DNA of 20,800 nt from Caldisericota bacterium (GTDB lineage: Bacteria > Caldisericota > JANLFM01). The stretch spans positions 1,854-22,653 of the forward strand of contig JANLFM010000023.1 in NCBI GenBank assembly GCA_024655865.1. Direction: 5' to 3'. Position numbers and translations under genes: made by a program. Under the pieces are notes generated by a model. That model searched no databases, was not told the origin of the DNA, and worked only from the letters and a program-made list of their open reading frames with translations. Positions 762-16,743 of the stretch are shown here, piece after piece; the first letter of the stretch is position 1, and each line of letters starts with the position of its first letter.

Positions 762-1649
762 TTAACCGGGTAGCTTAATTTCACCCTCTAATGTGGCTAC
801 AGCGTAACCGGACAATTTCACGGCTCTGATATTCTCACCTTCAAACACCAATTCAGCCTCACCGACTCCTGGCCTGCCCAGGAAATGCCCTTGTTCCATG
901 CGTAGAATCTTTTTGGGATTCAAGTACGAGTAAACGTATGCTGCCAGGGCCCCGGAAGCAGAGCCGGTAAATGGGTCCTCGCCTATTCCATAGGGGTTAA
1001 AGAGGCGAGCGTGGGTGTCGTTTCTCAAATCGATCGTCTCCAGGGTAAACAGGAAGGATCCACTGATCCCCAGCTCTTCAAGCAGGTTCTTAAGTGCTCC
1101 TCTTTCCATTTCTGTCCTTCGCAAAGCCTCCAGGCTCTTTAAAGGAACGATCAGGAAAGGGACTCCGGTGCTCACCACCTGGGGAGGGAGTGATTCTAAG
1201 AATTCCTCTTCAAAAAGATTGAAACAGGAACGTACCCTTTCCCAGGGAACTATTGTTCCAAATTGAGGAGCTTGCTGGGTCATCACCACCTTTATTCCCC
1301 TTTCGTCCTTAAAGATTTCCAGCGGAAGAACACCTATCTCGAATTGAAACGTGACCCGGGCCCTATTTTCGTGGAGAGCGATTTTTCCCTCGCTGGCCAG
1401 GAGGAAAGCCGTGGCGATGGTGGGGTGTCCCGCAAAAGGAATCTCCCCCCACGGGGCAAAGTAACGCACACGAAAGTCCGCCTCAGACGAGGGCAAGACG
1501 AAAGAGGTCTCGCTCAGGTTGGTCTCCCGAGCAATCATCTGCATCTCTTCAGGGTTTAAATCCTGAGCAGAAGGAAGAACAGCGCAAGGATTGCCTTTAA
1601 AGGGCTCAGTAGTGAAGGCATCAACGTAAACGATACGGTAGCGGCGCAA
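762..1649 (-). CDS. PhzF-family isomerase/epimerase-like protein
   Basis: The 295-residue length and motifs match the PhzF family, which has two pseudo-symmetric diaminopimelate-epimerase-like domains. Visible signatures are VDAFTTEPFKGNPCAV near the N-terminus, NLSETSFV with the catalytic-type Glu at E47, FAGHPTIAT with H75, and EDPFTGSASGAL in the second half. In PhzF the Glu moves a proton during isomerisation of trans-2,3-dihydro-3-hydroxyanthranilate. No other phenazine gene is present, so that substrate is unlikely; most relatives are uncharacterised isomerases or epimerases acting on small carboxylates. The start is TTG at 1649, one nucleotide after the pyrB stop, with only a weak AGGAAAAG site, which suggests translational coupling to pyrB. 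A role in isomerising an amino-acid-derived intermediate of the operon is inference. Confidence 0.87.
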   Translation of the reverse strand: MRRYRIVYVDAFTTEPFKGNPCAVLPSAQDLNPEEMQMIARETNLSETSFVLPSSEADFRVRYFAPWGEIPFAGHPTIATAFLLASEGKIALHENRARVTFQFEIGVLPLEIFKDERGIKVVMTQQAPQFGTIVPWERVRSCFNLFEEEFLESLPPQVVSTGVPFLIVPLKSLEALRRTEMERGALKNLLEELGISGSFLFTLETIDLRNDTHARLFNPYGIGEDPFTGSASGALAAYVYSYLNPKKILRMEQGHFLGRPGVGEAELVFEGENIRAVKLSGYAVATLEGEIKLPG

Positions 1650-1650
1650 G

Positions 1651-2580: not shown

Positions 2581-2593
2581 TTTACTCACTCCT

Positions 2594-3667
2594 TTACATG
2601 TCCTTTATTAAGTTCGCTAAAGTATGAATGCCCTTCTTGATCTCCTCGGGTTTCAAAGCGCAAAAAGGAAGCCTCAAAAAATTATCGCCCTGACCATCGG
2701 CGAAGAACCCCCGACCATCGGTAAGCAAAATTTCCGCGCCCTTGGCTTTTTCGAGGAGCTGAGGAGCGCTTATTTCTTTGTTCAAAGTAAGGCCCACGAA
2801 GAAACCGCCCTCGGGCTTCACCCATGTCCCAATGTCAGAGAACTCCTCTTCCAGAGTATCGAGCATCACCTGCAGCCTGGGTGCATAAAGGGTATGAAGC
2901 CTATCGAGCTGTCCGGGCATCAAGTCCTCTTTAAGGAACTCATAAACTAGAGCTTGAGGAAGAAGAGAGGGGGTAATGTATGTACCTTCGGCCTGGAAAG
3001 CTAAGCGCTTGATCAATTCCCGGGGGCCATAGGCCAGACCGACCCTCAATCCGGGGGAAATGAGCTTGCTGAATGAGCTCAAGGTGATCGTGCGTTCCGG
3101 AGCAAAGGAGCGGATTTGGGGAAGGTCCTTTCCCCTGTAACGTAATTTCCGATAGGGGATATCCTCCACGATCAGAAAGTCGAATTCCCGGGCAAGGGCT
3201 GCGATTTTTTCCCTTTTTTCTGCGCTCATAGTGGCGCCAGAGGGGTTCTGGAAATCTGGAATAAGGTAAACCAGTTTTGGCTTATAAGAACGAACTGCCT
3301 TTTGGAAAGCTTCTATCTCTGGTCCATCCTCTTTAAGGGGAACACCAATTACTGAACAGCCGGATCTCTTCAAGCTCTGAATCGCTCGGTCATAGGTGGG
3401 AAGTTCAACCAGCACTGAAGATCCTGGCCCTGCAAAACACTGTCCGATAAAGTCCAGAATCTGAAGGGCACCGTGGCTTAAAAGGATTTGATCCGAAGAA
3501 ATCCCGTACTCCTCAGAAAGAAACTTCCTCAGCGGTTCAAACCCGAATGATGAACTGTATTGAAAGATCTGGGGCCCATACTCTTTGATAGCCTTCTCGG
3601 AGCAGGAAAGCAGTTCTTCCTGAGGGAAGGCTTCTACGGCGGGAACCCCACGGGTAAAACTGATCAT
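2594..3667 (-). CDS. PLP-dependent aminotransferase, class I/II (MocR/2-aminoadipate type)
   Basis: A 357-residue fold-type I aminotransferase. Visible residues are the PLP-stacking region SHGALQ, N141 in PDFQNPSGATMS, the D169/Y172 pair in VEDIPYRKLRY, the Schiff-base lysine K201 in SSFSKLISPGLRVG and R208. The pattern resembles stand-alone 2-aminoadipate/valine-pyruvate/aromatic aminotransferases related to the catalytic half of MocR regulators. No N-terminal GntR DNA-binding domain is present, and the length is slightly short for the family (about 390-400). It would swap amino groups between an amino acid and a 2-oxoacid, which suits an operon carrying a 2-oxoacid oxidoreductase. ATG at 3667 has an AGGGGATGAAGAG leader. 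It lies 20 nt after the hydantoinase gene and 13 nt before pyrB. Substrate not predictable. Confidence 0.87.
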   Translation of the reverse strand: MISFTRGVPAVEAFPQEELLSCSEKAIKEYGPQIFQYSSSFGFEPLRKFLSEEYGISSDQILLSHGALQILDFIGQCFAGPGSSVLVELPTYDRAIQSLKRSGCSVIGVPLKEDGPEIEAFQKAVRSYKPKLVYLIPDFQNPSGATMSAEKREKIAALAREFDFLIVEDIPYRKLRYRGKDLPQIRSFAPERTITLSSFSKLISPGLRVGLAYGPRELIKRLAFQAEGTYITPSLLPQALVYEFLKEDLMPGQLDRLHTLYAPRLQVMLDTLEEEFSDIGTWVKPEGGFFVGLTLNKEISAPQLLEKAKGAEILLTDGRGFFADGQGDNFLRLPFCALKPEEIKKGIHTLANLIKDM

Positions 3668-3687
3668 CTCTTCATCCCCTTTCCGAA

Positions 3688-5049
3688 TTAAATGAGCTCT
3701 TCTGGATCCACCCGGCCAGCACGCGTGGCAAAAAATTTCGCAGATCCGGGACTGAGCTTAACCTCTCCATCCTGGAGAAGCACCCTTCCTCTCTGCATAG
3801 AGAAAACCGGTTTCCCCAGGCACTCCCTCTCGTGATAGAGGGTATAGCCTACAGTCGTATGCTGATTCTCATGCCTCAAGGTGTGCCTTAAAGCAGGATC
3901 GAGGACCACGATATCGGCGTCAGAACCCACTTGTATCGTTCCCTTCTGGGGGTACAGTCCGAAAATTTTCGCCGGGTTCTCGCACATGAGCTTCGCCAAC
4001 CTGGGCAGACTGATCCTTCCAGTATTCACCCCCTCATCGTAGATCAGGGTGAGCATCGTTTCGCACTGAGGAGAACCGTAAGGCGCTTTAAAGAAGTCGT
4101 CGTCAATCTTTTTGGCTTTGGCTGCGTGATCAGAGCCGATGGTGTCAATGATTCCATTTTGAACCCCTTCCCAGAGAGCGAGCCGGTCAAATTCCCTTCT
4201 GATCGGGGGGCCCACTTTAGCCAGCGCCCCAAACTTTCGATAAACATCATCGTTTAGGCAGAGGTACTGAGGGCAGGTTTCGGCATAAACCCTGTGCCCT
4301 TCTTCTTTAATCCTCCTTATAACCGGCATGCTTTTTCCTGCAGAGTTGTGGACTATGTAAATGGGGCAACCAGCCACCTGGGCAATGCGGCAGGCCCGAT
4401 TCACGGCCTCCGCCTCTAAAATATCCGGATTGGTCTCGAGGAAAACTTCCTTTTGAGGACGACCCTCTTTTATCAAAAGCTTGTCCTCCAGGTAATCGTT
4501 AGCCATGCCATTTTCCGCGTGTACCATAAGGAGCCCGCCTTCCTGTGCAATGATGTCTGCCGCTGCCATAAGCCAGTAGTCATCAGTCATCCACTTCAGC
4601 TTGGCATAGGCCATGAAGATCTTGCCGGAGGTAACTCCTAATTTAAAAATCTCCGGAATCAGAGGAACCTGATTGGAAGCGTCGAAAAACCCAGCATGAA
4701 GGCTAAAATCCAGCACTGACTTTTCTAATCCCTCGTCCCTGAACCATTTAATCGTGTCTAGGACTGGCTGACCTGGCTTAATATATGCGTAGAAAATCAT
4801 AAATGTTGTACCACCGTAGGCTGCTGCTTTAGCTGTCTCCAGGACTTTGTCTTCATAAACGGGGTGGGCATGGGGGTCAATTATTCCGGGTAGGACGTAC
4901 TTTCCTCGAGCATCGAATACTTGCCTGGCATCTTCCCGGGAAATATCCGGCGCGACCTGGGCAATCTTCTCACCGGAGACGGCCACATCTGACTTTTGCA
5001 TACCCTTCCCCGTGACCACAAGCCCGCCTTTGATCAGATAATCAAACAT
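3688..5049 (-). CDS. Dihydropyrimidinase/hydantoinase-family cyclic amidohydrolase
   Basis: This 453-residue metal-dependent amidohydrolase hydrolyses a cyclic amide such as dihydropyrimidine, hydantoin or allantoin. The binuclear site is complete: H60 and H62 in IIDPHAHP, the candidate carboxylated lysine K143 in TSGKIFMAYA, H177 in MVHAENG, H234 in IVHNSAG and D307 in GSDHAA. The GSDHAA and AETCPQYLCL motifs group it with dihydropyrimidinase/hydantoinase rather than biosynthetic dihydroorotase. Differences from textbook members include HAH for HTH, SGK for SFK, and NSAG for the usual VSS after the fourth His, so specificity may be unusual. The C-terminal part GTIQVGSDADIVVLDP is the usual second beta-sandwich. 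ATG at 5049 has AGGAGG 7 nt upstream, and the gene follows ridA by 10 nt. The racemase upstream in the same operon supports a hydantoin-type substrate, but no carbamoylase is seen. Allantoinase is the main alternative. Confidence 0.9.
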   Translation of the reverse strand: MFDYLIKGGLVVTGKGMQKSDVAVSGEKIAQVAPDISREDARQVFDARGKYVLPGIIDPHAHPVYEDKVLETAKAAAYGGTTFMIFYAYIKPGQPVLDTIKWFRDEGLEKSVLDFSLHAGFFDASNQVPLIPEIFKLGVTSGKIFMAYAKLKWMTDDYWLMAAADIIAQEGGLLMVHAENGMANDYLEDKLLIKEGRPQKEVFLETNPDILEAEAVNRACRIAQVAGCPIYIVHNSAGKSMPVIRRIKEEGHRVYAETCPQYLCLNDDVYRKFGALAKVGPPIRREFDRLALWEGVQNGIIDTIGSDHAAKAKKIDDDFFKAPYGSPQCETMLTLIYDEGVNTGRISLPRLAKLMCENPAKIFGLYPQKGTIQVGSDADIVVLDPALRHTLRHENQHTTVGYTLYHERECLGKPVFSMQRGRVLLQDGEVKLSPGSAKFFATRAGRVDPEELI

Positions 5050-5059
5050 CCTGGTCCTC

Positions 5060-5464
5060 CTATTCAGCTGTTTTTACAGCAATGCAATCAATTTCTACCA
5101 GAGCATCAGGATCAGGTAAAGATACAACTTCCACACAGGTTCGAGCGGGAAATCCAGCCAAGAAGAACTCTCGATAAGCTTGGTTAACTAAGGCGAAGAG
5201 TCGCATGTCCTTAAGGAAGATGTTAATCTTCAGGACCTTCTCCAGGGAACTTCCAGCATCTTCCAGGAAAGATGATATATTTCTCAAAGCTTGCCTCGTC
5301 TGCTCCTTTATGTCTAACTTGGCGATCTCGCCGGTTTTGAAGTCCCTGCCCACAACCCCGGATACAAAAATCAGGTCTCCGTACTGTACAGTGGTTGCGA
5401 AGGGCAAGTTGGGGTTAAGGGGAGGAGAGCGGAAAATTTCTTTATGGTTTTTCTTTTCAGGCAT
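5060..5464 (-). CDS. ridA: RidA (YjgF/YER057c/UK114) family enamine/imine deaminase
   Basis: A 134-residue protein of standard RidA length. It has LIFVSGVVGRD, the helix EQTRQALRNISSFLEDAG and the FPARTCVEV motif. R108 there is the conserved arginine that binds the substrate carboxylate, and E124 (ALVEID) matches the conserved acidic residue, so imine deaminase activity is expected. RidA hydrolyses reactive enamine/imine products such as 2-aminoacrylate, which PLP-dependent serine/threonine dehydratases release. Here its start lies inside the end of the dehydratase gene (8-nt overlap), which fits that pairing well. ATG at 5464 has a strong GCAGGAGGTC site 4 nt upstream. Some RidA homologues act in pyrimidine or aminophenol breakdown, so a role with the hydantoinase just downstream is also possible. 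Confidence 0.92.
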   Translation of the reverse strand: MPEKKNHKEIFRSPPLNPNLPFATTVQYGDLIFVSGVVGRDFKTGEIAKLDIKEQTRQALRNISSFLEDAGSSLEKVLKINIFLKDMRLFALVNQAYREFFLAGFPARTCVEVVSLPDPDALVEIDCIAVKTAE

Positions 5465-6440
5465 TTTGACCTCCTGCCATTATTAAATTAAATTTTTCTG
5501 CGCTTATATTTCGTCCCGTGAGAACAAGAACGGTTTTCTTTTTCTCGGGATTGACCTTTTTAAAAAGCAAAGCCGCTAAAGTAACCGCAGCAGCTCCCTC
5601 CACAATCACTTGTTCTTCTCTTTCAAAAACGCGCATCGCTTCCATAATCTCCTCTTCGCTTACCAGCACAACTCTGTCGATCAAATTGTGAGAAATCCTG
5701 AAGGGCAGAGGACTGAAGCCCCCGGAAAGCCCGTCGGCAATGGTAGGCCTTAATTCAATTCTCTCTCGGGGAACACCATCCCTCAAAGAAAGAAAGGCTC
5801 CAGGAGCGGCCTCTGGTTCCACCCCAATTACCTCTACTTTAGGGCTCAAAGCCTTAATGACAGAGGAAATTCCTGAGATCAACCCTCCCCCTCCTATGGG
5901 AACGATAATCCTCTCCAGGGAAGGAAGATCTTCCAGAATTTCCAGCGCTATTGTCCCCTGACCTGCAATGGTCCAAGGGTGGGCGTGGGAGTGAACATAG
6001 AAGGAATCCCTCTCTTTCACGTACTCCATTGCACTATCATAGGCTTCAAGGAAAGTTTTTCCCTTTAGCACCACCTCGGCCTTCAGCTCCCTCATTTTTT
6101 GAACCTTGCACGCTTCGGCGGACTCAGGGCTATAAACCCTTACCTTGAGGGAATTTCCCAGAGTAAAGACGGCGTATGAGAGCGCAATACCGTGATTCCC
6201 GCTGGACGCGGTTACCAGAGGTCCTTGCTCATGCGATTCAAGGAAGTTCAAAATCCAGCTGAATGCTCCTCTTACTTTAAATGAACCTGTAAGTTGCCAG
6301 CACTCCATTTTCAGATAAACAGGCAACTTCAAGAGTTTGCTTAAAGCATGGGAGAAAATAAGTGGGGTCTTGAGAATATGATTTTGGATTCTTCTTCTGG
6401 CCAAAACGACATCAGTGGGAGAAAACTCCTCCTCAGCCAT
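5457..6440 (-). CDS. Threonine/serine dehydratase-like PLP enzyme (fold type II)
   Basis: A 327-residue fold-type II PLP enzyme with all main motifs: the lysine K55 in TGSFKVRGA, the cofactor-binding SSGNHG at 79-84, the phosphate loop GGGGLISG at 183-190 and a late VLVLTGRN. It would deaminate threonine to 2-oxobutyrate or serine to pyruvate, releasing ammonia through an enamine. It has no C-terminal ACT domain, so it resembles catabolic (TdcB-like) rather than isoleucine-feedback-controlled IlvA enzymes. Serine racemase and related ammonia-lyases are alternatives that sequence alone does not exclude. ATG at 6440 has GGAGGAG 10 nt upstream and overlaps the threonine-synthase-like gene by 8 nt; it overlaps ridA by 8 nt. 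Its 2-oxoacid product is a natural feed for the ferredoxin oxidoreductase encoded earlier in the operon. Confidence 0.9.
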   Translation of the reverse strand: MAEEEFSPTDVVLARRRIQNHILKTPLIFSHALSKLLKLPVYLKMECWQLTGSFKVRGAFSWILNFLESHEQGPLVTASSGNHGIALSYAVFTLGNSLKVRVYSPESAEACKVQKMRELKAEVVLKGKTFLEAYDSAMEYVKERDSFYVHSHAHPWTIAGQGTIALEILEDLPSLERIIVPIGGGGLISGISSVIKALSPKVEVIGVEPEAAPGAFLSLRDGVPRERIELRPTIADGLSGGFSPLPFRISHNLIDRVVLVSEEEIMEAMRVFEREEQVIVEGAAAVTLAALLFKKVNPEKKKTVLVLTGRNISAEKFNLIMAGGQNA

Positions 6441-7662
6441 TGGCTAAAAACTCCTCCAGCAGAGAGGTAGCCTGATGGGTGTCATATGCCTGTAAGACAG
6501 AGGATAGATCAGGGGTGATAGTTTGCAATTCCCTGAATCCGGAACCGGTCAATATCAAGACCGCTTTTTCGCCCTCCTTGACCAGACCCACCGACCTCAG
6601 ACGTAAAAAGCCTGCTAAAGCTGCGGCTGATGAGGGCTCAACGAATATTCCATCCTTCTTGGCAAGCAATTTCAAAGCCTCCAGCAGTTCCTCGTCTGAA
6701 AGGGAAACCGCAGTGCCCTCGGAATCCCTGATGGCCTGAAGAGCTTCGACTCCGTCCACCGGGTAGGCGTGGGCGAGTTTTACTCCCATTGTCTCTATAG
6801 ATTCGTCCATCTCAGAGGCAATCTCCCTGAGTTCTGCTTCTGTTTTAGCGCCCGTTTTTAAAGCGAGCTCGAAGGTATTAAGGGCTTTCAATTCACATGC
6901 TACAAACTTAGGGATTTTATCCACAAGCCCCATTTTGAAAAGCTCAAGAAATCCTCGGTGAATTCCAGCCAGCGTCCCTCCTGAAGCTCGAGGAACAAAG
7001 ATCCAATCGGGTGCCAATTCAAGCTGCTCAAGTATCTCGTAAGCTATGGTCTTGGTTCCTTCATTCTGATACGGATTGCTTGGCCTGTGGGTAGTTGTTT
7101 CAAAAACTTTTAATTTTAGGCATGTTTCCTCAACAAAATCCAGAGCGTTCTGTATGGTTCCTTGAAGAGGGATGACCATAGCACCGTAAAGTATCATCGG
7201 CGCTACCCTCGTAAAAGGTGCGTTCTCCGGAACCAATATAGCGCACTTCATTCCAGCTCGGGCAGCATAGGCTGCAGTTGCCAGCCCTGCGCTTCCCATG
7301 GAAGCGTTCAGCGCTGCCTTAAATCCCATGGCCTTGGCCATCGAAATGCCCACAGACATCGCTCGATCTTTTACAGAACCCGTGGGATTGAGCCATTCGT
7401 TTTTCAGGAAAAGGTCTTCTTCAATAGAGCTTTCAACAAGGGAAGTGCCTCCTTCTCCCAGAGACACAGGCTCGAACCCCTCGGGAAGAGGAAGCAATTT
7501 CCTGAACTTCCAAATGCTTCTCCCCTCATGGAAGTTTAAGGTTGTTCCAGGGGGATAGCGGAAAAAAATTAAGCCGCCGCATACAGGACACCTACGCAGG
7601 TAAGTGAGAATGTCAAATGATTTGCCGCAGCTTTGGCAATATGGTTGAACTTTATTCTCCAT
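6433..7662 (-). CDS. Threonine-synthase-like PLP protein with N-terminal zinc ribbon
   Basis: This 409-residue protein begins with a zinc-ribbon pattern (C9, C12, C25, C28), followed by a fold-type II PLP core with K98 in NPTGSVKDRAM. The overall plan matches threonine synthase and relatives such as cysteate synthase. Two cofactor loops differ from the usual form. The SSGN-type loop reads SMGSAG at 121-126, so the Asn that normally contacts PLP is Ser124. The phosphate loop reads PRASGGTLAG around 224-232. These changes make a plain threonine-synthase call unsafe; it may act on another O-activated or amino-acid substrate. ATG at 7662 has an AGAGGTGAT site upstream. It lies 22 nt after the second permease gene and overlaps the dehydratase gene by 8 nt, a pairing that suggests shared chemistry. 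Confidence 0.8.
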   Translation of the reverse strand: MENKVQPYCQSCGKSFDILTYLRRCPVCGGLIFFRYPPGTTLNFHEGRSIWKFRKLLPLPEGFEPVSLGEGGTSLVESSIEEDLFLKNEWLNPTGSVKDRAMSVGISMAKAMGFKAALNASMGSAGLATAAYAARAGMKCAILVPENAPFTRVAPMILYGAMVIPLQGTIQNALDFVEETCLKLKVFETTTHRPSNPYQNEGTKTIAYEILEQLELAPDWIFVPRASGGTLAGIHRGFLELFKMGLVDKIPKFVACELKALNTFELALKTGAKTEAELREIASEMDESIETMGVKLAHAYPVDGVEALQAIRDSEGTAVSLSDEELLEALKLLAKKDGIFVEPSSAAALAGFLRLRSVGLVKEGEKAVLILTGSGFRELQTITPDLSSVLQAYDTHQATSLLEEFLANG

Positions 7663-7684
7663 GGCTTATCACCTCTTTGAGCCT

Positions 7685-8752
7685 TCAGGCTGCTTTCGGC
7701 TGTCTGCGAATGGATCTGGTGATTCCTTTGCTCTTCATCTTGTTCTCCAATACCGTGGAAATCCTTGCCAGGGGAAGCAGGATAATCAGGTAAATGATGG
7801 TGGCCGCTACAAGTGGAGTGGGATTTGCCTTCCAGGCTTGAAGGGTAATCGCTGTTTTTAGAAGTTCCATGATGGCAATAGAAGAGCAGATAGCTGTGTC
7901 CTTAAGCATAGCCACATAGTTGGAAGTGAGTGGGGGCATGACCACTCTCATTGCCTGGGGAAGAATTACCAGGCGCATGGTTTGCATGGTGGTGAGCCCT
8001 AGGGATCGAGCTGCCTCAACCTGGTTGTGGTGAATGGACTCAATGCCAGCACGGAAAATTTCGGAAATATAGGCAGAGGAATTCAGGGAAAGAGCCATAA
8101 TCCCTGATACAGTGCTGGAAAGGGTAATATTTAAATACGGTAAGGCATAATAAATAATCATCATTAAAACGATGATGGGCATCGCTCTGAAGAAGTCCAC
8201 CCAGATAATGATAAATGCATTGAGGATGGGATCATTAAGAGAGCGAAAAACAGCGAGAAAGAGCCCCAGGATTGTGCCGAATATGGCACTGAAAATTGCA
8301 ATTTGCAGGGTGATGAGTAAGCCCTGGAAAAGCTCTGCCCATCCGGTCACGGTGGAACCGTAACTTCCAGTCTCCGAGAGGACTTTCCAGTTGAAAAAAG
8401 CATATCCCAGCTTGTCCCATTGCGCTCCAGAATATCTGTAGAAAAGCCATCCAAAAAGAGACAGGATGAGGGTGGCAGCAATTGCCTTTATCCAGTTGGG
8501 CTTTTCCACATCGATTAAAATCAAACCTGCCCAGACAAGGAAAAGCAGGAGGTAGAAAACAATGAATAGCCATTGAAAGAGAGTCTCAGGCAGCCCGGGG
8601 CGAGGAAGAGCAAAGCCAAAGGCAATTAAAGCCAGGAAGGAAACAAGGATGAACTCATACCTGCGGTACCACGGCCAGTGACCGTAACGTTCCTTCCAGG
8701 TTGTTTTTTCCAAACAGTTTTCTTTTAAAGCTTCGTTGTTTTTGGTTTTCAT
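7685..8752 (-). CDS. Polar amino-acid ABC transporter permease with N-terminal membrane extension
   Basis: A 355-residue inner-membrane permease of the polar amino-acid (HisMQ/GlnP) group. The core runs from about residue 137 to the end. It has the ATPase-contact EAA loop EAARSLGL at 246-253, followed by LVILPQAMRVVMPPL. Ahead of the core is an extension of about 130 residues with a WPWYRRYEF segment, about three hydrophobic stretches (33-50, 57-80, 88-105) and a conserved FYRYSGAQWD. The other permease of this transporter has the same extension, so the two probably arose by duplication and form a heterodimer. ATG at 8752 lies 11 nt after the ATPase gene with no clear Shine-Dalgarno site, which suggests translational coupling. 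AapQ/AapM-type general amino-acid permeases are the closest analogues I can think of. Confidence 0.92.
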   Translation of the reverse strand: MKTKNNEALKENCLEKTTWKERYGHWPWYRRYEFILVSFLALIAFGFALPRPGLPETLFQWLFIVFYLLLFLVWAGLILIDVEKPNWIKAIAATLILSLFGWLFYRYSGAQWDKLGYAFFNWKVLSETGSYGSTVTGWAELFQGLLITLQIAIFSAIFGTILGLFLAVFRSLNDPILNAFIIIWVDFFRAMPIIVLMMIIYYALPYLNITLSSTVSGIMALSLNSSAYISEIFRAGIESIHHNQVEAARSLGLTTMQTMRLVILPQAMRVVMPPLTSNYVAMLKDTAICSSIAIMELLKTAITLQAWKANPTPLVAATIIYLIILLPLARISTVLENKMKSKGITRSIRRQPKAA

Positions 8753-8763
8753 GTTTTTTCAGA

Positions 8764-9507: not shown

Positions 9508-10484
9508 TTCTTACTCCTTCTTTCAAGATAGCTGGAGAAGCGAGTTAAAGGTAATAGCACGAGTAGATAGATAAGAGCAACTGTGACTAAAGGCGTTGGA
9601 TTTGCTTTCCAGATCATGGTTTGAATCCCTTTATACAGTAACTCGGGCAACCCAATAATAGTAGCCAGAGCGGTATCTTTTAAAAGCGCTACCATCAGGC
9701 CAGTCAATGGAGGAACAACCACCCTAACTGCCTGGGGGAGAATTACCAGGCGCATTGCCTGAAGGGATCTCAGTCCTAACGACCGTGCTGCCTCAACTTG
9801 AGCCCTGTGAATGGATTCGATCCCGGATCGAAAAACCTCAGCAACGTAAGCTGAATAGTTCAGGGAAACCGCCAGAATAGCAGCAAGATATGGATCCAGG
9901 GCAATCCCCAGGAAGGGAAGGGCATAGTAAACAAAAACCAGGAGCACTATAAGGGGGATAGCGCGGAAAAAATCAATGTAGATTATCAGGAAAAATTCCA
10001 GGATCGGGTTTTTAAAAGATCGCAGTACAGCAATAATCAGACCTAAAACCGTAGAAATTAACATGGAAACCAGAGCCAGTTTAAGAGTCATTTCAAGCCC
10101 CAGCAATAGTTCAGACCATGCCCCTTGCATCATGCTGGGATTCAAGAAAGTTTTGGTAAAAAGATCCCAGCGAGCTCCTGAGTATCGATAAAAGCTAAAT
10201 CCGAAAACGAAAATCAGCCCGAAAGCGGCAATTGCTCTAAGCCACCTGGGTTTTTCTACATCGGTAAGAACTCCTACAACCCAGAGGAGGACGATAAAGA
10301 TGAAGGTGCATATTAGAACCCAGCCAATGGCATTGGAGGGACGGCCTGAGGGTAGAAAGATCCCCAGGAGGATGATAAAGAGCGAGAGGGGAAGTAAAAA
10401 CTCGTACCTTTTGTACCAGGGTAAGTGGCCAAACTTCTCCCTATATCTTTGATAAAAGCTCTGACGTATCTGGTTTGTTTGCAT
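9486..10484 (-). CDS. Polar amino-acid ABC transporter permease with N-terminal membrane extension (paralogue)
   Basis: A 332-residue permease, paralogous to the one encoded at 7685-8752. It has the same N-terminal plan: an LPWYKRYEF segment, hydrophobic stretches at about 28-44, 52-73 and 83-98, then FYRYSGARWD. The core contains the EAA loop EAARSLGL at 231-238 and LVILPQAVRVVVPPL. It should pair with its paralogue as the two membrane subunits of one importer. ATG at 10484 has only a weak AAGAG nearby. A perfect AAAGGAGG lies 40 nt upstream, separated by a 28-nt hairpin, so the hairpin may bring that site within reach. The gene follows the binding-protein gene by 54 nt and overlaps the ATPase gene by 22 nt. 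Confidence 0.92.
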   Translation of the reverse strand: MQTNQIRQSFYQRYREKFGHLPWYKRYEFLLPLSLFIILLGIFLPSGRPSNAIGWVLICTFIFIVLLWVVGVLTDVEKPRWLRAIAAFGLIFVFGFSFYRYSGARWDLFTKTFLNPSMMQGAWSELLLGLEMTLKLALVSMLISTVLGLIIAVLRSFKNPILEFFLIIYIDFFRAIPLIVLLVFVYYALPFLGIALDPYLAAILAVSLNYSAYVAEVFRSGIESIHRAQVEAARSLGLRSLQAMRLVILPQAVRVVVPPLTGLMVALLKDTALATIIGLPELLYKGIQTMIWKANPTPLVTVALIYLLVLLPLTRFSSYLERRSKKWVKSAR

Positions 10485-10496
10485 TGAACTCTTAAT

Positions 10497-10524
10497 GCCG
10501 GCCCCGACCGTAGTCGGGGCCGGC
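10497..10524 (-). promoter_or_regulatory. Perfect 12-bp hairpin between binding-protein and permease genes
   Basis: GCCGGCCCCGAC (10497-10508) and GTCGGGGCCGGC (10513-10524) pair perfectly around a CGTA loop. The stem is almost all G-C, so it should be very stable in the minus-strand transcript. No T-tract follows it in the minus-strand direction (the next bases are ATTAAGAG), so it does not look like a standard intrinsic terminator. Hairpins at this position in transporter operons often protect the upstream binding-protein message and raise its level over the membrane parts. A strong ribosome-binding site (AAAGGAGG, 10525-10532) abuts the 5' side of the stem. Confidence 0.85.
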
Positions 10525-10538
10525 CCTCCTTTACTTCA

Positions 10539-11390
10539 CTATTGTTCAGGAACGTAGGGTGTAGTAAATACCTTGACTGTAGGGCTATCCGGATCCGGGT
10601 CCTTGCCGAACCATTTTTTGTAGATCTGGGCTAAAGTGCCATCTTGCTTAAGTTCGTTCTGATACTTGTTGAACTCGTCCCGAAGAGGATCGCCCTTGCG
10701 GAAGAAGACCGCCTGCATAAAGGCCTTGTTGGCTTTCAACCTGACTTCTAAGTCCGGTTTGTCCTTGATGTAGTATTCCACAGTAGGAAGGTCTCCGACC
10801 ACGCCATCAATTCTACCAGCGATCAGATCCAGCATAGCGTCTTGAATTCGGTCGTACCCCTTGATCTCGAAGGGACCGTACTGGGGAAGCATTTCCTTCA
10901 GCCAGGCGTCGTTGGAAGATCCGGACTCAGCGCCGAAAACTTTGCCCTTCATGTCCTCGAAGGACTTGATTGTACTGTCCTTTTTGACGCAAAGGGAAGT
11001 GTCGGAGGCATAGTATGGATCGGCGTAGTCGAACTCCTCGGCTCTCTTCTTGGTGACGAAGATGGAAGAAGCTGCAGCATCCCATTTTCCGGCGAGCAAT
11101 CCTGGGAGAATGCCAGAGAACTGGAGATCCGTCCACTCCACCTTTGCACCCATTCTCCTGGCGATCTCCTCTACCATTTCGTATTCAAAACCCGTGTTCT
11201 TCCCTCCCTCTTTGAAAATCCAGGGCACGTTGCCAAAGTTACCAGCAACCTTAATGACCCTTTGAGTAGGAGAAGGCGGTGGAGTGGTACTGGGAGATGG
11301 GCTGGTAGGAGTGGAAGGAGCAGCGCAACCGGTAACCAAAAGCCCCACAATTAAAACGACACCAACAGCAAAAACCAGAAGCCTTTTCAT
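10539..11390 (-). CDS. Polar amino-acid ABC transporter substrate-binding lipoprotein
   Basis: A 283-residue family-3 solute-binding protein. The N-terminus MKRLLVFAVG plus a hydrophobic stretch ends in the lipobox LVTGC, so it is cleaved and lipidated at C22 and anchored outside the inner membrane. A Pro/Ser/Thr-rich linker runs to about residue 43. Ligand-binding positions fit an amino-acid ligand: R116 in FVTKKRAEEFDYADPYY (carboxylate), S158/S159 in ESGSSND and D200 in GRIDGVVGD (alpha-amino group). The ligand side chain cannot be predicted. ATG at 11390 is chosen because GAAGGAGGG lies 9 nt upstream and the signal peptide is then of normal length. In-frame starts near 11450 would add about 20 basic residues. 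It precedes both permeases and the ATPase and is followed by a stable hairpin, as expected for the most abundant component. Confidence 0.94.
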   Translation of the reverse strand: MKRLLVFAVGVVLIVGLLVTGCAAPSTPTSPSPSTTPPPSPTQRVIKVAGNFGNVPWIFKEGGKNTGFEYEMVEEIARRMGAKVEWTDLQFSGILPGLLAGKWDAAASSIFVTKKRAEEFDYADPYYASDTSLCVKKDSTIKSFEDMKGKVFGAESGSSNDAWLKEMLPQYGPFEIKGYDRIQDAMLDLIAGRIDGVVGDLPTVEYYIKDKPDLEVRLKANKAFMQAVFFRKGDPLRDEFNKYQNELKQDGTLAQIYKKWFGKDPDPDSPTVKVFTTPYVPEQ

Positions 11391-11457
11391 TCTACTTAAC
11401 CCTCCTTCAAGAGTTTTTTGTTTCAAACCTCCTCTTTTCTTCCCCACCATCACCTCC

Positions 11458-12165
11458 TCACTTAAACTCCTTCTTGGGTGGCACAGCGTAGAGCCCCAGT
11501 TTGCAGTGTTTCAAGCCGAGATCCGATAAGGCCTCCGCGATCTTCAAGGTTACTGCCGAGGGATCGAGAACTACAACGCCAAGCTCGCGCTCAACTTCCT
11601 CTCCATAGCCTGCCATCCCGGCGCAGCCAAGGATAATAACCTCTGCTCCGTCTTCCTCCACCGCCCTTTTTGCCACCTCCATTATTCTCTTTTTTGCAAG
11701 CTCGGGATTGGCATCGGTATCGGCGACAGATAATTCCAGAGGGCGAACAGAGGCCAGAAAATGTCCCAGCCCTAACTCGTAAACCTGTTGGAGCTTATGG
11801 GGAACCCTTTCTCTTCTATTAGTGATGATGGTAAAACGGGCTCCAAGCATACATGCCGCATGAAGGGTAGTCTCCATAATCCCTAAAACCGGTATATCCG
11901 AAATTTCCCTGCTTGCCCTCAGGCCGGGATCCGAAAAGCAGGCGATGATGATAGCGTCATATTTCTCCTCATTAGCCCTCCTGACAAGCTCCAACATATT
12001 GGCCGTTGCCCAGACCTCTTCGTAAGCCGACTCTATTGTAATGGGACCATGTTCCGGATTGGTTACAGTTAACTCTGTATCCAGCCTCTTTGTTTTTTCC
12101 AGCACGTTCTTCAGGTGCTCAGTCATGGAAGAGGAAGTATTGGGATTAATAACCATTATCTTCAT
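11458..12165 (-). CDS. Asp/Glu/hydantoin racemase family protein
   Basis: A 235-residue protein of the aspartate/glutamate/hydantoin racemase superfamily. It starts with the typical MVINPNTSSSMT. The two catalytic-type cysteines are C76 in IIIACFSDPGL and C181 in IILGCAGMAGY, about 105 residues apart, and would act as the two-base cofactor-free racemisation pair. The INPNT start and length fit hydantoin or allantoin racemases better than MurI glutamate racemase. The hydantoinase in the same operon supports a 5-substituted hydantoin or allantoin substrate (inference). ATG at 12165 has GGAGG 6 nt upstream and overlaps the iorB stop by 4 nt (ATGA), so translation is coupled. A maleate-isomerase-like or arylmalonate-decarboxylase-like role is less likely, since both cysteines are kept. 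Confidence 0.9.
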   Translation of the reverse strand: MKIMVINPNTSSSMTEHLKNVLEKTKRLDTELTVTNPEHGPITIESAYEEVWATANMLELVRRANEEKYDAIIIACFSDPGLRASREISDIPVLGIMETTLHAACMLGARFTIITNRRERVPHKLQQVYELGLGHFLASVRPLELSVADTDANPELAKKRIMEVAKRAVEEDGAEVIILGCAGMAGYGEEVERELGVVVLDPSAVTLKIAEALSDLGLKHCKLGLYAVPPKKEFK

Positions 12166-12755
12166 TTCATGCCTCCAATTTCCCTTCCCGCTTCAAATGC
12201 TTTAAGATTCACTTCTAAGTATTTTGGCGCCACGAATTTCCGCACGGCCTCCTTCCAGTAGTTAGCTTCTACATGAAGTAAGGTTGAGAGAAAACCAATC
12301 AAAACAATGTTGATCACTTTCGAATTTCCCATTTCCAGAGCTTTCTTTAAGGCATCCACAGGGTAAACATGCTTCACTCTGCTCTTAAGTCTTGCAAGAA
12401 TATCCTCATCTGAGGGATATTCCTCCTTGCCGGTGTTCACGGAGATGGGTGGGATTTTTTGAGTATTAACCACTACAATTCCAGTATCTTTCATAAAGTT
12501 AAGCCGACGCAAAGCCTCAAGGGGTTCAAAAGCTAACATTATGTCTACCTCCCCGTTTCCCACCATGGGAGCGTGGAGTTCTTCCGGGTTCCAGCGCACG
12601 TGGGAAATTACACTACCTCCTCTCACTGCTAAACCCAGCACGTCGGATTTTTTGACGTGATACCCAGCTTTCAAACCTACTTCGGCAACAATATCGCTAG
12701 CTACAACAGTTCCCTGGCCCCCCACTCCGCAGATAAGAAAATTAACGGCCTTCAT
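12162..12755 (-). CDS. iorB: Indolepyruvate:ferredoxin oxidoreductase, beta subunit
   Basis: A 197-residue protein equal to the gamma-type domain of 2-oxoacid:ferredoxin oxidoreductases. It starts with FLICGVGGQGTVVASDI (glycine loop at 10-15), followed by KSDVLGLAVRGGSV, the typical IorB pattern. With IorA it forms an oxygen-sensitive complex that converts aryl- or branched 2-oxoacids plus CoA to acyl-CoA, CO2 and reduced ferredoxin. ATG at 12755 is chosen because GGAGG lies just upstream and the start overlaps the iorA stop in a classic ATGA. An upstream in-frame extension would run into the iorA coding region. The order iorA-iorB is the usual one. Downstream it overlaps the racemase gene by 4 nt. 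Confidence 0.93.
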   Translation of the reverse strand: MKAVNFLICGVGGQGTVVASDIVAEVGLKAGYHVKKSDVLGLAVRGGSVISHVRWNPEELHAPMVGNGEVDIMLAFEPLEALRRLNFMKDTGIVVVNTQKIPPISVNTGKEEYPSDEDILARLKSRVKHVYPVDALKKALEMGNSKVINIVLIGFLSTLLHVEANYWKEAVRKFVAPKYLEVNLKAFEAGREIGGMK

Positions 12756-14545
12756 TCCTTTGCCTCCAGTTTTTTGGTCTGAAAAATTGCTCCTGTAGGA
12801 CAAACCTGGCTGCAAACCCCGCAACCGTTGCAGAGAACGGGGTCAATTCTGGTTTTCTTTCGTTTATTTTTGGAATAAATTTCCTCGGATTTAACAACTG
12901 CTGGGCAACCTACTTTGAGACAAGTTTCGCAAGCAATACATTTTTCGGGGTCTACCGCGTAGGCAGGCTTGGGTCTGCGGCTGACGAAAATGCATTCCCC
13001 CTTAGTAATCATCACGGCCGGGCCGTCATCCCATGCCAGGCATTCTTTTAAGGTCCTTTCCACTTCTCGAACATCGAAGGCGTTAACTGATCGGACTAAC
13101 TTGACGTTCATTGCTTCAACAAGACGGTGAATATCTATCTTCTCAGTCGGCTCCCCCATTAGTGTTTGATCCATTCCTGGATGATCCTGATGTCCTGTCA
13201 TAGCTGTGGTGCTATTATCCATTATGATTACGACCCCCTTGCTGCGGTTATGGACCATATTTACCAGGGGAGGCATTCCGGCGTGAAAAAAGGTAGAGTC
13301 ACCAATAGTGGCTACTGCTCTTTCAGGAGAACCAGAAACGTAAACCCCGTGAAGCTGTCCCACAGAAGAGCCCATGGAACCCATTGTATGCTGAGCGTTA
13401 AAAGGAGGGAGGGAACCAAGGTTGTAGCAACCAATATCCCCGGTAACTGGAACTTTGAGTTTTGCCAGAGCGTAAAAAGTCGCCCTGTGCGGACAGCCCG
13501 GGCAAAAAACGGCGGCTCTGGTAGGAAGGTTACCTAAATCGATCACTTTTTTCTTCGGAGAAGGCTCAATTAATCCAGCTTTTTCAGCACACTCGCGCAT
13601 TTTCTCAGGAAGGATTTCATCATAAGGAGGAAATATATCCTTCCCCCTTGCTTTAATACCCATGGCTTTTATCTGGGTTTCTAAGAAAGGATCAAGTTGC
13701 TCGATCACAAGGAGGTTTTCTATCCGGGAAGAGAAATCCCTGATTAAACGTTCTGGCAGTGGATGGATCATCCCGAGCTTCAAAAAAGAAGCGCGCGGGA
13801 AAACCTCGCGCGCATACTCATAAACTATGCCGGAAGAGATAATGCCTAATTCGGTATCTTGCCAGATAATTTTATTTAAATCTGAAGTCTCAGCAAACTC
13901 CCTCAGTTCCTGGAAGCGTTTCTGGATTATGGGACGTTTTTTCCTGGCGAATACGGCATTACAGTTGTATTTCTCGATGTCCCTGGGGAATTTCTTGGGT
14001 AGAGGTATCTCTGGAATCCTTTCTTTTAAAATCACTTCGGATTTGGAATGAGCGATGCGCATTTCGGAACGGACAATGAAGGGGGTATCGAACTTCTCAG
14101 ATAACTGGAGCGCCATAACCACCATGTCCTTGCACTCCTGGGAATCAGAGGGCTCAAGCATGGGAACCTTCCCCAGAATGGAATACCAACGATTATCCTG
14201 CTCGTTCTGGGAACTAAACATTCCTGTATCATCGCATACTACAACTACTAATCCGGCCTCTAACCCGGTGTAGGGAAGATAGAAGAGAGAGTCCGACAGG
14301 ACGTTCATACCTACGAGCTTCGTGGTTACCATAGACCTGACACCCGAATAGGCAGCCCCCGCTGCAACGTCCATAGCCACTTTTTCATTCACCGACCACT
14401 CTGCGTAGATTGTTTCCTTATACTCCCTGGCTACAGTTTCCAGGATTTCGGAACTCGGAGTACCGGGATAGCCGCATGCAACCTTGACCCCTCCTTCGAA
14501 GGCTCCTCTGGCAATTGCCTCGTTGCCCGTTAACAATGCTTTCAT
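12752..14545 (-). CDS. iorA: Indolepyruvate:ferredoxin oxidoreductase, alpha subunit
   Basis: A 597-residue IorA. Domains in order are an N-terminal pyrimidine-binding region (GNEAIARGAFEGGV, then GYPGTPSSEI and a conserved-type E54 in SVNEK), a middle transketolase-C-like domain, and a TPP domain. The TPP domain has FCPGCPHRA around 347-355, GDSTFFHAG from 415, and N444. The C-terminus carries a ferredoxin-like unit with cysteines 536, 539, 542, 547 and 572, 575, 578, 582 for two [4Fe-4S] clusters. The four-residue spacing before C547 is normal for IorA. It oxidises 2-oxoacids from aromatic or other amino acids to acyl-CoA and reduces ferredoxin. ATG at 14545 has GAGGTGACCTGAAA upstream and lies 7 nt after the acyl-CoA synthetase gene, whose product would use the acyl-CoA. 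Confidence 0.96.
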   Translation of the reverse strand: MKALLTGNEAIARGAFEGGVKVACGYPGTPSSEILETVAREYKETIYAEWSVNEKVAMDVAAGAAYSGVRSMVTTKLVGMNVLSDSLFYLPYTGLEAGLVVVVCDDTGMFSSQNEQDNRWYSILGKVPMLEPSDSQECKDMVVMALQLSEKFDTPFIVRSEMRIAHSKSEVILKERIPEIPLPKKFPRDIEKYNCNAVFARKKRPIIQKRFQELREFAETSDLNKIIWQDTELGIISSGIVYEYAREVFPRASFLKLGMIHPLPERLIRDFSSRIENLLVIEQLDPFLETQIKAMGIKARGKDIFPPYDEILPEKMRECAEKAGLIEPSPKKKVIDLGNLPTRAAVFCPGCPHRATFYALAKLKVPVTGDIGCYNLGSLPPFNAQHTMGSMGSSVGQLHGVYVSGSPERAVATIGDSTFFHAGMPPLVNMVHNRSKGVVIIMDNSTTAMTGHQDHPGMDQTLMGEPTEKIDIHRLVEAMNVKLVRSVNAFDVREVERTLKECLAWDDGPAVMITKGECIFVSRRPKPAYAVDPEKCIACETCLKVGCPAVVKSEEIYSKNKRKKTRIDPVLCNGCGVCSQVCPTGAIFQTKKLEAKE

Positions 14546-14552
14546 TTTCAGG

Positions 14553-16700
14553 TCACCTCAATTCCATGAGAGCATCTATTGCTAATACGCCTTGTCCCTC
14601 AGGCATGATGAAAAGGGGATTAATATCCAGGGCCTTAATTTTGTCCCTAAAATCAGAAGCCAGCCTTCCCAGTCTCACAAGGGCTTCACAGAGTCCTTCT
14701 AAGTCCCCCTTGGGCTTGCCGCGAAATCCCGAGATGAGCTTGTACAGCTTTGTCTCTTCGACCATTTGCAGAGCCTCCTGGTGATTAAGAGGAGGAAGAC
14801 GAAGGGAGTAATCTTGAATCAGCTCGACAAGTACTCCACCGGAACCAAATACCAGAACCGGACCAAATGATTGGTCTAAGGAAATACCTAATATGGCCTC
14901 CGCCACCTGCCCCCCGACCATCTGAGAAATGAGAAATTCTTTCTCTTCAGGAAAGATCTCAGACATCTTTTGAAAAGCCCTCTCAAGCCCCTCAGGATTT
15001 TCAATGTTCAAGATCACCCCTCCAGCATCGGTTTTGTGAAGAACCAGGCCAGAGTGGACTTTCAGAACAACGGGGTATCCTATGGAGGAAGCATGATCAA
15101 GGGCCTCTTGAATATTCTTCACTATAAATTCCTTCGGGCTTTTTATCCCATAGGCCTCCAGAATTTCTTTCGCTTCGTGCTCCTTAAGGAAACCTTCTCT
15201 GGAAGAGAGAACACCTTTAACCTTTCCAACATTTACCTGAAGGTCTGGTGCCTGCGTCTTTTCTCGCCTGAGATATTGAGAGTACCAGATCAGCTTATCC
15301 ACTGCCTGCAGGCTCTCTCTCGTGCCCTGGAGAAAGGGGATCCCTGCCTCCTCCAGTACTGAGTGGATCCTGGGATCAAAACCGCCTGATATATTGGAAA
15401 AAAAGGCAATCGGCTTTTGATAGGATTTCTTCACCCTTGCCGCAGATCTGGCGATGGTGAGGTATTGCTCGGTCTGCTTGGGAGCGAGATCCGCTGTAGC
15501 ATCCAGGGATACAAGGAGCATGTTCACTTCGGGTTCTGCAGCGAGAACCTCCATAGAAGGAGGATAAGTGCGCTCAAGATCTCCTGACCCCCAGGCATCT
15601 AAGGGGTTTGAGATTGTGGTATAAGGAGGAAGAGCCTCTTTAAGCCTTTTTTGGGAATCTCGTGAAAGCTCGGGGAAAATGAATTGCCGGCCTTCTGAAA
15701 GGTCGGCAATTAACCCAATTTCACCCCCAGAAACAGTTACAAGAGCTACCTTGTTGGAGGGGGGCAAATTGTCCCTGCACTTCAAAAAGAGTTCGCTGGT
15801 TTCTAACAGTTCATCCAGGTCGTTGACCCTTACGAATCCTATTTTTTGAAAAAGGGCATCGTGAACCCGGTCAGATCCAGCGAGGGCGCCCGTATGAGCC
15901 GCTGTCGCCCTCTGAGCCAGTTCTGATTTACCGACTTTTACTAAAATTATCGGCTTATTAAGCTCCCTGGCTTTCCGGGAGATATATTCCAATCTTTCTG
16001 GCTTGCGAAAACTTTCAATAAAAAGAGCGATAACCTCAGTTTCGTGGTCATCAAGAAGGTAATTAAGGTACTCTGTGGCCTCCAGAACAGCCTCATTCCC
16101 GGTAGAGATAATTTTTGAAAAACCTATTCCCCTATTTGAATTGGTTAAGGCCAAACATACGGAACCGCTTTGCACGATGGCTCCGATTTTTCCTTTTTTA
16201 AGGTGCTGGTTGAGGGGAGCGCTAAAGGCAGCGAAGGCATTGTTTAGGTTTACCAAGCCCACACAGTTAGGTCCGCAGAACTGGATGCCGTTTTCTGCAC
16301 AAAAATCGCCCAATTTTTGCTGCAGTTTTTTCCCTTCCTCACCGCTTTCAGCAAAACCGCTGGCAAATGCCCAGGCGGCTTTAATACCCTTCCGTGCACC
16401 TTCCATCAAAACCGGTAGAACCTTATCAGCGGCAAGAACAATTGCGACCATCTCCACCTCTCCAGGGATTGAGCTCAGGTCGGGGTAACAGGTTAGTCCT
16501 AAGACAGTGGAGCGCCGCGGGTTTACGGGATAAATTTTGCCTTTGTAACCCAGAAAGAATAAATTTTCTATAACGTTTAAACCGGCACCAGGGCTTTCAG
16601 AGGCACCTACTACTGCAATACTTTTAGGAGAAAGGAGGGAATCGAGTTTTTTAGGGGGAAAGTCTTGCTTGGAATTAATCTCAGCTTTAGAATTAATCAT
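14553..16700 (-). CDS. ADP-forming acyl-CoA (acetate-CoA ligase type) synthetase, fused alpha-beta
   Basis: A 715-residue NDP-forming acyl-CoA synthetase with both subunits fused. Residues 20-145 form a CoA-binding Rossmann domain (SIAVVGASESPG, then FCGPNCVGL at 141-149). The succinyl-CoA-ligase-like domains follow, with the phospho-accepting H269 in AAHTGALAGS. The last 220 or so residues are an ATP-grasp domain with VLKVHSGLVLHKTDAGGV and ALDINPLF. It converts acyl-CoA, ADP and phosphate to the acid, CoA and ATP, so it earns energy from IorAB products. There is no GNAT domain as in PatZ-type acetyltransferases, which supports a metabolic role. ATG at 16700 is preferred because GAGGA lies 8 nt upstream; the ATG at 16715 has no site. 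It is the first gene of the 15-gene operon, divergent from the IclR gene. Confidence 0.95.
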   Translation of the reverse strand: MINSKAEINSKQDFPPKKLDSLLSPKSIAVVGASESPGAGLNVIENLFFLGYKGKIYPVNPRRSTVLGLTCYPDLSSIPGEVEMVAIVLAADKVLPVLMEGARKGIKAAWAFASGFAESGEEGKKLQQKLGDFCAENGIQFCGPNCVGLVNLNNAFAAFSAPLNQHLKKGKIGAIVQSGSVCLALTNSNRGIGFSKIISTGNEAVLEATEYLNYLLDDHETEVIALFIESFRKPERLEYISRKARELNKPIILVKVGKSELAQRATAAHTGALAGSDRVHDALFQKIGFVRVNDLDELLETSELFLKCRDNLPPSNKVALVTVSGGEIGLIADLSEGRQFIFPELSRDSQKRLKEALPPYTTISNPLDAWGSGDLERTYPPSMEVLAAEPEVNMLLVSLDATADLAPKQTEQYLTIARSAARVKKSYQKPIAFFSNISGGFDPRIHSVLEEAGIPFLQGTRESLQAVDKLIWYSQYLRREKTQAPDLQVNVGKVKGVLSSREGFLKEHEAKEILEAYGIKSPKEFIVKNIQEALDHASSIGYPVVLKVHSGLVLHKTDAGGVILNIENPEGLERAFQKMSEIFPEEKEFLISQMVGGQVAEAILGISLDQSFGPVLVFGSGGVLVELIQDYSLRLPPLNHQEALQMVEETKLYKLISGFRGKPKGDLEGLCEALVRLGRLASDFRDKIKALDINPLFIMPEGQGVLAIDALMELR

Positions 16701-16720
16701 CTGAATTTTCCTCATTTCAC

Positions 16721-16743
16721 AATATGCAACGAGGTTTCATATT
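16721..16743. promoter_or_regulatory. Imperfect palindrome, candidate IclR-family operator
   Basis: AATATGCAA (16721-16729) and TTTCATATT (16735-16743) are inverted repeats with 8 of 9 positions matching around CGAGG. The right arm overlaps the candidate -35 box of the IclR gene, and the whole site lies just downstream of the candidate operon promoter. A dimeric regulator bound here could block its own promoter and transcription into the operon. Assignment to the neighbouring IclR protein is by position only. Confidence 0.5.

Follow-up and report, generated by a model that had tools for sequence, protein, structure and literature searches.

A sixteen-gene unit beside a divergent IclR-family regulator

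We analyzed a stretch of 20,800 nucleotides from an uncultured Caldisericota bacterium, hereafter the window (contig JANLFM010000023.1; G000:C15:1854-22653 in our numbering), and within it a minus-strand gene cluster that combines amino-acid import and fermentation genes with a hydantoinase-fold cyclic amidohydrolase and an aspartate carbamoyltransferase (ATCase). The source genome, G000, is 1.82 Mb in size and 96% complete. Open reading frames and domain searches together gave 16 intact genes running from 16715 to 194, spaced by −23 to +54 bp, with a Shine-Dalgarno-like sequence ahead of most of them. A promoter-like site and an inverted repeat both lie inside the 79-bp divergent spacer toward an IclR gene. 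Based on gene spacing and these signals, the 16 genes are predicted to form one transcription unit. They are listed here in 5' to 3' order, with pyridoxal phosphate abbreviated as PLP, thiamine pyrophosphate as TPP and ATP-binding cassette as ABC.

14553-16715, minus: ADP-forming acyl-CoA synthetase, fused alpha-beta (ACD type); Pfam CoA_binding_2, Succ_CoA_lig and ATP-grasp_5; AHTGALAG (aa 272), HKTDAGGV (aa 559)
12752-14545, minus: IorA-like 2-oxoacid:ferredoxin oxidoreductase, alpha; TIGR03336 640 bits (cut-off 651); TPP motif, two 4Fe-4S Cys motifs
12162-12755, minus: IorB-like 2-oxoacid:ferredoxin oxidoreductase, beta; PF01558; best NCBIfam 219 bits (cut-off 230); start ATG overlaps the iorA end by 4 bp
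11458-12165, minus: hydantoin/allantoin-type racemase; PF01177 194 bits; PDB 3qvj hydantoin racemase 5e-41; Cys76 and Cys181 motifs
10539-11453, minus: amino-acid ABC importer, substrate-binding lipoprotein (likely start near 11390); SBP_bac_3; GlnH Arg75 and Asp157 equivalents
9486-10484, minus: amino-acid ABC importer, permease 1; BPD_transp_1; HEQRo_perm_3TM over cut-off
8764-9507, minus: amino-acid ABC importer, ATPase; ABC_tran; GlnQ model closest
7685-8752, minus: amino-acid ABC importer, permease 2; BPD_transp_1, HEQRo_perm_3TM
6433-7662, minus: threonine-synthase-like PLP enzyme with N-terminal zinc ribbon; PF00291; PDB threonine synthases 2e-51; NPTGSVKDR, two CxxCG motifs
5457-6440, minus: threonine/serine-dehydratase-like PLP enzyme; PF00291 252 bits; PDB catabolic threonine dehydratase 3e-53; SFKVRG, SSGNHG, GGGGL
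5060-5464, minus: RidA enamine/imine deaminase; TIGR00004 over cut-off; R-T-C-V Arg present
3688-5049, minus: hydantoinase-fold cyclic amidohydrolase, own clade in the tree, shortened substrate loop; TIGR02033 372.7 bits (cut-off 393.25); six metal ligands; pLDDT 94 model
2594-3667, minus: aminotransferase, 2-aminoadipate/multi-substrate type; PF00155; PDB alpha-aminoadipate aminotransferase 2e-67
1651-2589, minus: aspartate carbamoyltransferase catalytic chain; TIGR00670 375 bits (cut-off 237); 16/16 E. coli PyrB active-site residues
762-1649, minus: PhzF-family isomerase/epimerase; TIGR00654 242 bits (cut-off 76); SETSF and GHPTIAT motifs
194-784, minus: PCC/DUF296-domain protein; PF03479 50 bits; orthologue in all family members

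The signals and flanking genes are as follows.

16752-16780, minus: sigma-70-like promoter, TTGACT-17-TATCCT; conserved in G001
16717-16747, no strand: 14-bp inverted repeat between promoter and first gene, probable IclR operator; conserved in G001
158-188, minus: intrinsic terminator at the operon end, 13-bp stem and T run
16795-17607, plus: divergent IclR-family regulator; PF01614 171 bits
17636-18808, plus: aspartate-aminotransferase-like enzyme, encoded downstream of the regulator; PF00155 241 bits; top NCBIfam model archaeal aspartate aminotransferase, 342 bits (cut-off 550)

An initial annotation, made from the letters alone, had placed a single tightly packed amino-acid and cyclic-ureide fermentation operon at 762-16700. 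Its coordinates were right, every function that it named is present as an intact open frame, and the single unit agrees with the absence of any gap over 54 bp and with the predicted promoter, IclR-type palindrome and terminator. The unit is larger than proposed, however, as the PCC/DUF296 gene at its end had been left out, and the threonine-synthase-like enzyme (7662-6433) had not been named separately. The PCC protein likely starts near 736, matching the start of its G001 orthologue; all copies of the operon end that we saw finish with this gene, and solved PCC structures match the protein weakly. On the other side, miaA and miaB (18792-20800) are convergent with the regulator-aminotransferase pair, as they are in G001; here the unit seems to meet ordinary chromosomal genes.

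A conserved neighborhood in related genomes, a check named in the initial annotation, was found. Our family sample consisted of five genomes (G000-G004), three of them fragmented. The sister species G001 (JANLFL010000002.1) carries all 16 genes and the IclR gene in the same order at ~69-94% identity, and two other genera of the family have the 3' half of the operon. In G002 (C167) the order is binding protein, permease, ATPase, permease, two dehydratase paralogues, PhzF, a ThrC-like protein and a further transport protein, followed by two more dehydratase paralogues, RidA, hydantoinase, aminotransferase, ATCase, PhzF and PCC; G003 and G004 have pieces of this 3' block at contig ends. The two tandem dehydratase pairs of G002 (L038 3849-5907 and 9369-11535) each consist of an SCGNQG-type followed by an SSGNHG-type paralogue, with the PLP lysine in all of them, and possibly represent heteromers or a division of labor between stereoisomers. 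Among 386 genomes from 318 genera, the window-type hydantoinase was found in only four family members, and nothing above 43% identity appeared outside the family. The three top-scoring outsiders (G327, G190 and G137), each checked by tblastn, had no ATCase, racemase, RidA or PhzF match near the hydantoinase in the stretch read. A scan of genome contigs with the ThrC-like protein matched the sister species only, and a plasmid search with the hydantoinase gave matches that were all under 60% (best 37%). Since gene order is kept in relatives and no comparable neighborhood was seen in the other sampled genomes, we regard the predicted operon as conserved and, within this sampling, restricted to one family.

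Predicted amino-acid import and recovery of ATP

One part of the unit centers on amino acids. The GlnH Arg and Asp hold the alpha-carboxylate and the alpha-amino group of the ligand, and equivalents of both (Arg75 and Asp157) are kept in the binding protein of three genomes by alignment. The importer therefore looks to be of the amino-acid type, and it most likely takes up alpha-amino acids and not hydantoins; uptake by an ABC importer, as first annotated, is supported for amino acids. The Schiff-base lysine motif is intact in both PLP fold-II enzymes, as is the arginine of RidA. The IorAB pair carries TPP and two 4Fe-4S motifs, and its scores fall slightly short of the curated equivalog cut-offs for indolepyruvate:ferredoxin oxidoreductase (IOR; 640 vs 651 and 188 vs 206 bits). 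The acyl-CoA synthetase has alpha and beta domains and both catalytic His motifs. An IOR beside an ADP-forming acyl-CoA ligase is a reported pairing in amino-acid-fermenting Clostridia (PMC13285125). Domains and catalytic residues thus support an energy-conserving half made up of import, PLP deamination with RidA, transamination, IOR and ADP-forming synthetase, as the initial annotation had it, with its substrates predicted. Imported amino acids would be deaminated by dehydratase and RidA or transaminated to 2-oxoacids, these would be oxidized by IOR to acyl-CoA and reduced ferredoxin, and acyl-CoA would yield ATP through the ADP-forming synthetase.

This tail shares with that of peptide-fermenting anaerobes the path from 2-oxoacid through acyl-CoA to acid and ATP, while in the window it is linked to a hydantoin racemase, a hydantoinase and an ATCase. 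Ectoine utilization (ehuABCD-eutABCDE) also combines a polar-amino-acid ABC importer with threonine-dehydratase-like and Asp/Glu-racemase-fold proteins. We rejected this assignment: the EhuA, EhuB, EhuC, EhuD and EutB cut-offs were all missed (274/345, 54/191, 128/197, 133/205 and 270/413 bits) and no EutC, EutD or EutE was found among the operon genes.

A genuine aspartate carbamoyltransferase together with a predicted ring-opening enzyme

The odd element is the ATCase. Genuine and pseudo-ATCases have been separated by an active-site motif criterion (PMC4016543). The window enzyme has 16/16 of the carbamoyl-phosphate and aspartate site residues of E. coli PyrB, including Arg229 and Gln231, as do its orthologues in G001, G002 and G004. 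None of the other four carbamoyltransferases found in G000 has such an active site. By its residues, then, the "pyrB-like" gene of the initial annotation encodes a genuine ATCase. The Rubrobacter module of pseudo-ATCases, or ureidoglycine carbamoyltransferases (UGTCases), likewise joins a cyclic amidohydrolase to an ATCase-fold enzyme and involves catabolic carbamoyl phosphate (PMC4016543); the window enzyme differs in keeping the genuine-ATCase motifs that UGTCases lack. Pseudo-ATCases in G002 (L050 3073-5259) and G004 (L051 7809-8759) fail the 16-residue test, having lost residues of the aspartate site (S80R, K84Y, R229P, Q231V and P266S relative to E. coli). In G002 the neighbors are a YgeW-like transferase and a carbamate kinase, and these pseudo-ATCases are candidates for a new carbamoyltransferase specificity.

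Given a genuine ATCase site, the carbamoyl partner should be aspartate, and the ring that feeds the enzyme should open to N-carbamoyl-L-aspartate, being either dihydroorotate or 5-carboxymethylhydantoin. The racemase falls among hydantoin/allantoin racemases, with catalytic Cys76 in ACFSDPG and Cys181 in LGCAGM, and a hydantoin-type racemase would favor 5-carboxymethylhydantoin over dihydroorotate. In the hydantoinase, the metal ligands H60, H62, K143, H177, H234 and D307 (four His, a carboxylated Lys and an Asp) are fully or almost fully conserved among 16 relatives. Its model (predicted local distance difference test, pLDDT, 94) aligned by VIA-align with Z 56 to hydantoinases and dihydropyrimidinases (root-mean-square deviation 1.9 over 438-444 residues), with Z about 51 to allantoinase and Z about 46-48 to dihydroorotase, a lower rank that is compatible with dihydroorotase activity. 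The curated D-hydantoinase model TIGR02033 gave 372.7 bits, under its cut-off of 393.25. In a tree, the window enzyme forms its own clade with those of G001-G003, apart from the allantoinase-like hydantoinases of the urate clusters in this phylum. Its motifs are a shortened loop after HxH (HAHPVYEDK), KVGPPIR and SDHAAK. The short loop and the lysine hint at a polar or anionic substituent on the substrate.

The hydantoin or dihydropyrimidine use first proposed is thus narrowed: generic 5-substituted hydantoins, dihydrouracil and allantoin are at odds with the step that follows opening, which carbamoyl-aspartate fits. Classical hyu operons share the hydantoinase and hydantoin racemase, whereas the window has an ATCase and no N-carbamoyl-amino-acid hydrolase in the operon. 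No HyuC-type carbamoylase was found in the operon and no TIGR01879 match over cut-off in G000-G004; carbamoylases of the CN-hydrolase type were not searched for. In the earlier view this is a general amino-acid fermentation operon, and several amino acids would reach the hydantoinase, racemase and ATCase as N-carbamoyl or hydantoin derivatives. That view draws on the hydantoinase-type fold, the racemase and the amino-acid type importer, but the amino acid taken by a genuine ATCase site is aspartate, and no HyuC-type enzyme that could serve other N-carbamoyl amino acids exceeded the cut-off in the genome, leaving this account quite improbable. We infer that the ureide half is best read as a carbamoyl-aspartate module. 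Overall, the initial observation is confirmed and its interpretation partly supported.

Catabolic or biosynthetic use of the ATCase

We consider there to be about an even chance that the unit is a catabolic operon under IclR control, which would serve the anaerobic use of amino acids with ATP made by substrate-level phosphorylation, and in which the ATCase would act catabolically via N-carbamoyl-aspartate. A catabolic ATCase is favored because relatives that lack pyrD, pyrE and pyrF keep it, because every family genome has a carbamate kinase, because no HyuC-type carbamoylase exceeded the cut-off, and because of an arrangement in G025. Specifically, in G002, G003 and G004 we found nothing matching pyrF, no more than weak matches to pyrE (below those of G000 and G001) and PF01180 proteins that are PreA-like only, with no PyrD of pyrimidine synthesis. 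These genomes keep the ATCase-PhzF-PCC end, and G002 and G003 also RidA-hydantoinase-aminotransferase; the pair is therefore not biosynthetic there. Carbamate kinase occurs once per family genome, over cut-off in 4/5 (the G002 copy reaches a contig end). G025, from the same phylum, has neither pyrF nor a strong match to pyrE; its ATCase, 56% identical to that of the window, is flanked by carbamate kinase on one side and PyrK-PyrD on the other. Its locus (C64, L052 89-10993) encodes an IclR regulator, carbamate kinase, a genuine ATCase, PyrK-like and PyrD-like proteins, a branched-chain-type ABC importer and an amidohydrolase. It is probably a locus for orotate or dihydroorotate fermentation with ATCase in reverse and carbamate kinase, and would be a precedent for a catabolic ATCase.

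Several points weigh against a catabolic ATCase in the window. Conservation in G002-G004 concerns the 3' half, and IOR, acyl-CoA synthetase and racemase were not traced there, the G002 contig beginning at the binding protein. The only carbamate kinase found in G000 is at C60, none being inside the operon. The hydantoinase substrate is predicted, the shortened loop and SDHAAK being suggestive only. The equilibrium, as stated for carbamoyltransferases, strongly favors carbamoyl-aspartate formation (PMC4016543), so a reverse ATCase would need a pull. Furthermore, G000 and G001 have pyrK-pyrD-pyrF-pyrE at another locus with neither pyrB nor pyrC beside it, and no other pyrB or pyrC was found in either genome, so that biosynthetic use of the ATCase would be economical there. 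Finally, in G003 RidA-hydantoinase-aminotransferase directly follows a purine/urate-type operon with UacX/PreA-like, XdhB, SsnA and nucleoside-type ABC genes.

The pyrimidine genes raise an explanation that the initial annotation had not considered, namely that ATCase and hydantoinase are the PyrB and PyrC of this genus, feeding the separate pyrK-D-F-E operon and merely located in a fermentation operon. The window enzyme is alone in G000 in having an ATCase site, no class II PyrC was found elsewhere in that genome, and the sole other dihydroorotase-like protein is an allantoinase-like one at C63. Carbamoyl phosphate could come via a citrulline route without CarB, as reported for Thermococcus (PMC13260591). 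No CarB was found in any of the seven genomes searched, including G027 with its pyrB-pyrI-pyrC cluster, and its absence therefore does not decide the direction of the ATCase. Such a biosynthetic role sits poorly with the family members that lack pyrD, pyrE and pyrF yet keep the pair or its ATCase end, and with the flanking catabolic genes under an IclR regulator. PyrI (TIGR00240), which not all ATCases require, had no match in G000-G004, unlike the biosynthetic pyrB of G027, where it is present. The class I dihydroorotase carboxylate residues are also missing: the window enzyme has HAHPV and SDHAAK where G027 PyrC has HAHFR and TDHAPH, so that it lacks the HxHxR arginine and has Lys at the carboxylate-binding His. 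We consider the biosynthetic explanation somewhat unlikely, though it is the chief alternative to catabolic use.

The G003 neighborhood raises another possibility, reductive purine (urate) degradation, of which the operon would be the lower half: racemase and hydantoinase would act on 5-ureidomethylhydantoin, carbamoyl would be transferred from 2,3-diureidopropionate, PLP lyase and RidA would give pyruvate, and IOR and acyl-CoA synthetase acetate and ATP. The reductive urate pathway does use HyuA, a carbamoyltransferase and a pyruvate-yielding PLP lyase (PMC12507026). Yet G000 has a separate set for it. Its upper genes are at C1 (L068 4516-18506), with xdh genes, a PreT/PreA-like pair, SsnA, an adenine-deaminase-like protein and a nucleoside importer; C60 (L048 9687-14052) has a tandem pair of YgeW-like transferases and carbamate kinase, with YgeX/YgeY replaced by a ThrC-like enzyme; and the allantoinase-like hydantoinase of C63 groups with that of the urate cluster of G005. 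C1 and C60 apparently represent a reductive urate pathway in Caldisericota. Moreover, the window ATCase keeps all aspartate-site residues, unlike the YgeW-like and pseudo-ATCase enzymes. Owing to this C63/C60/C1 set and these residues, we rejected the urate pathway as the leading explanation and retain it as a minor, improbable one.

The E. coli ygeW-ygeX-ygeY-hyuA-yqeA module of that pathway (PMC12507026), named as the closest comparison in the initial annotation, has in common with the window a hydantoinase fold, a carbamoyltransferase fold, a PLP fold-II enzyme and an ATP-recovering catabolic logic. The likeness does not extend beyond protein folds. Identities are 32% to HyuA for the hydantoinase, 24% to YgeW for the ATCase and 22% to YgeX for the dehydratase; the knotted YgeW model TIGR03316 gave 42 bits vs 500; and the operon lacks YgeY and a carbamate kinase while having a racemase, an amino-acid importer, IOR and the ADP-forming synthetase. 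We therefore do not assign it to this module.

Returning to catabolic use of the ATCase, a cyclic ureide of aspartate, either L-dihydroorotate or 5-carboxymethylhydantoin that the racemase has rendered usable, would be opened to N-carbamoyl-L-aspartate in parallel with amino-acid fermentation. ATCase with phosphate would split this product into aspartate and carbamoyl phosphate, the latter giving ATP via the carbamate kinase encoded elsewhere and aspartate joining the same amino-acid route. Tentatively, and as a possibility that we hold to be on the unlikely side, this would be a new energy-conserving route, in which an aspartate ureide is racemized and opened and a genuine ATCase runs in reverse to carbamoyl phosphate and ATP, in an operon that also recovers ATP from carbon skeletons. 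Our literature search found no report joining hydantoinase, ATCase, gene cluster and fermentation, and nothing on genes for carboxymethylhydantoin or orotate fermentation. Carboxymethylhydantoinase (EC 3.5.2.4) has been described in Clostridium oroticum, and we know of no gene assigned to it; if the route exists, the hydantoinase gene would encode this enzyme.

A biosynthetic ATCase would still leave a clear unit for amino-acid fermentation, confined to one lineage of Caldisericota. If the ATCase is catabolic, it would add a further kind of catabolic carbamoyltransferase, with an ordinary PyrB active site, to the ornithine/putrescine and YgeW/UGTCase/oxamate types, and genes annotated "pyrB" in anaerobes without pyrE and pyrF may serve energy conservation. 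It would also suggest a specific substrate for a lineage not yet in culture, with two predicted sites of substrate-level phosphorylation, at carbamate kinase and at the acyl-CoA synthetase.

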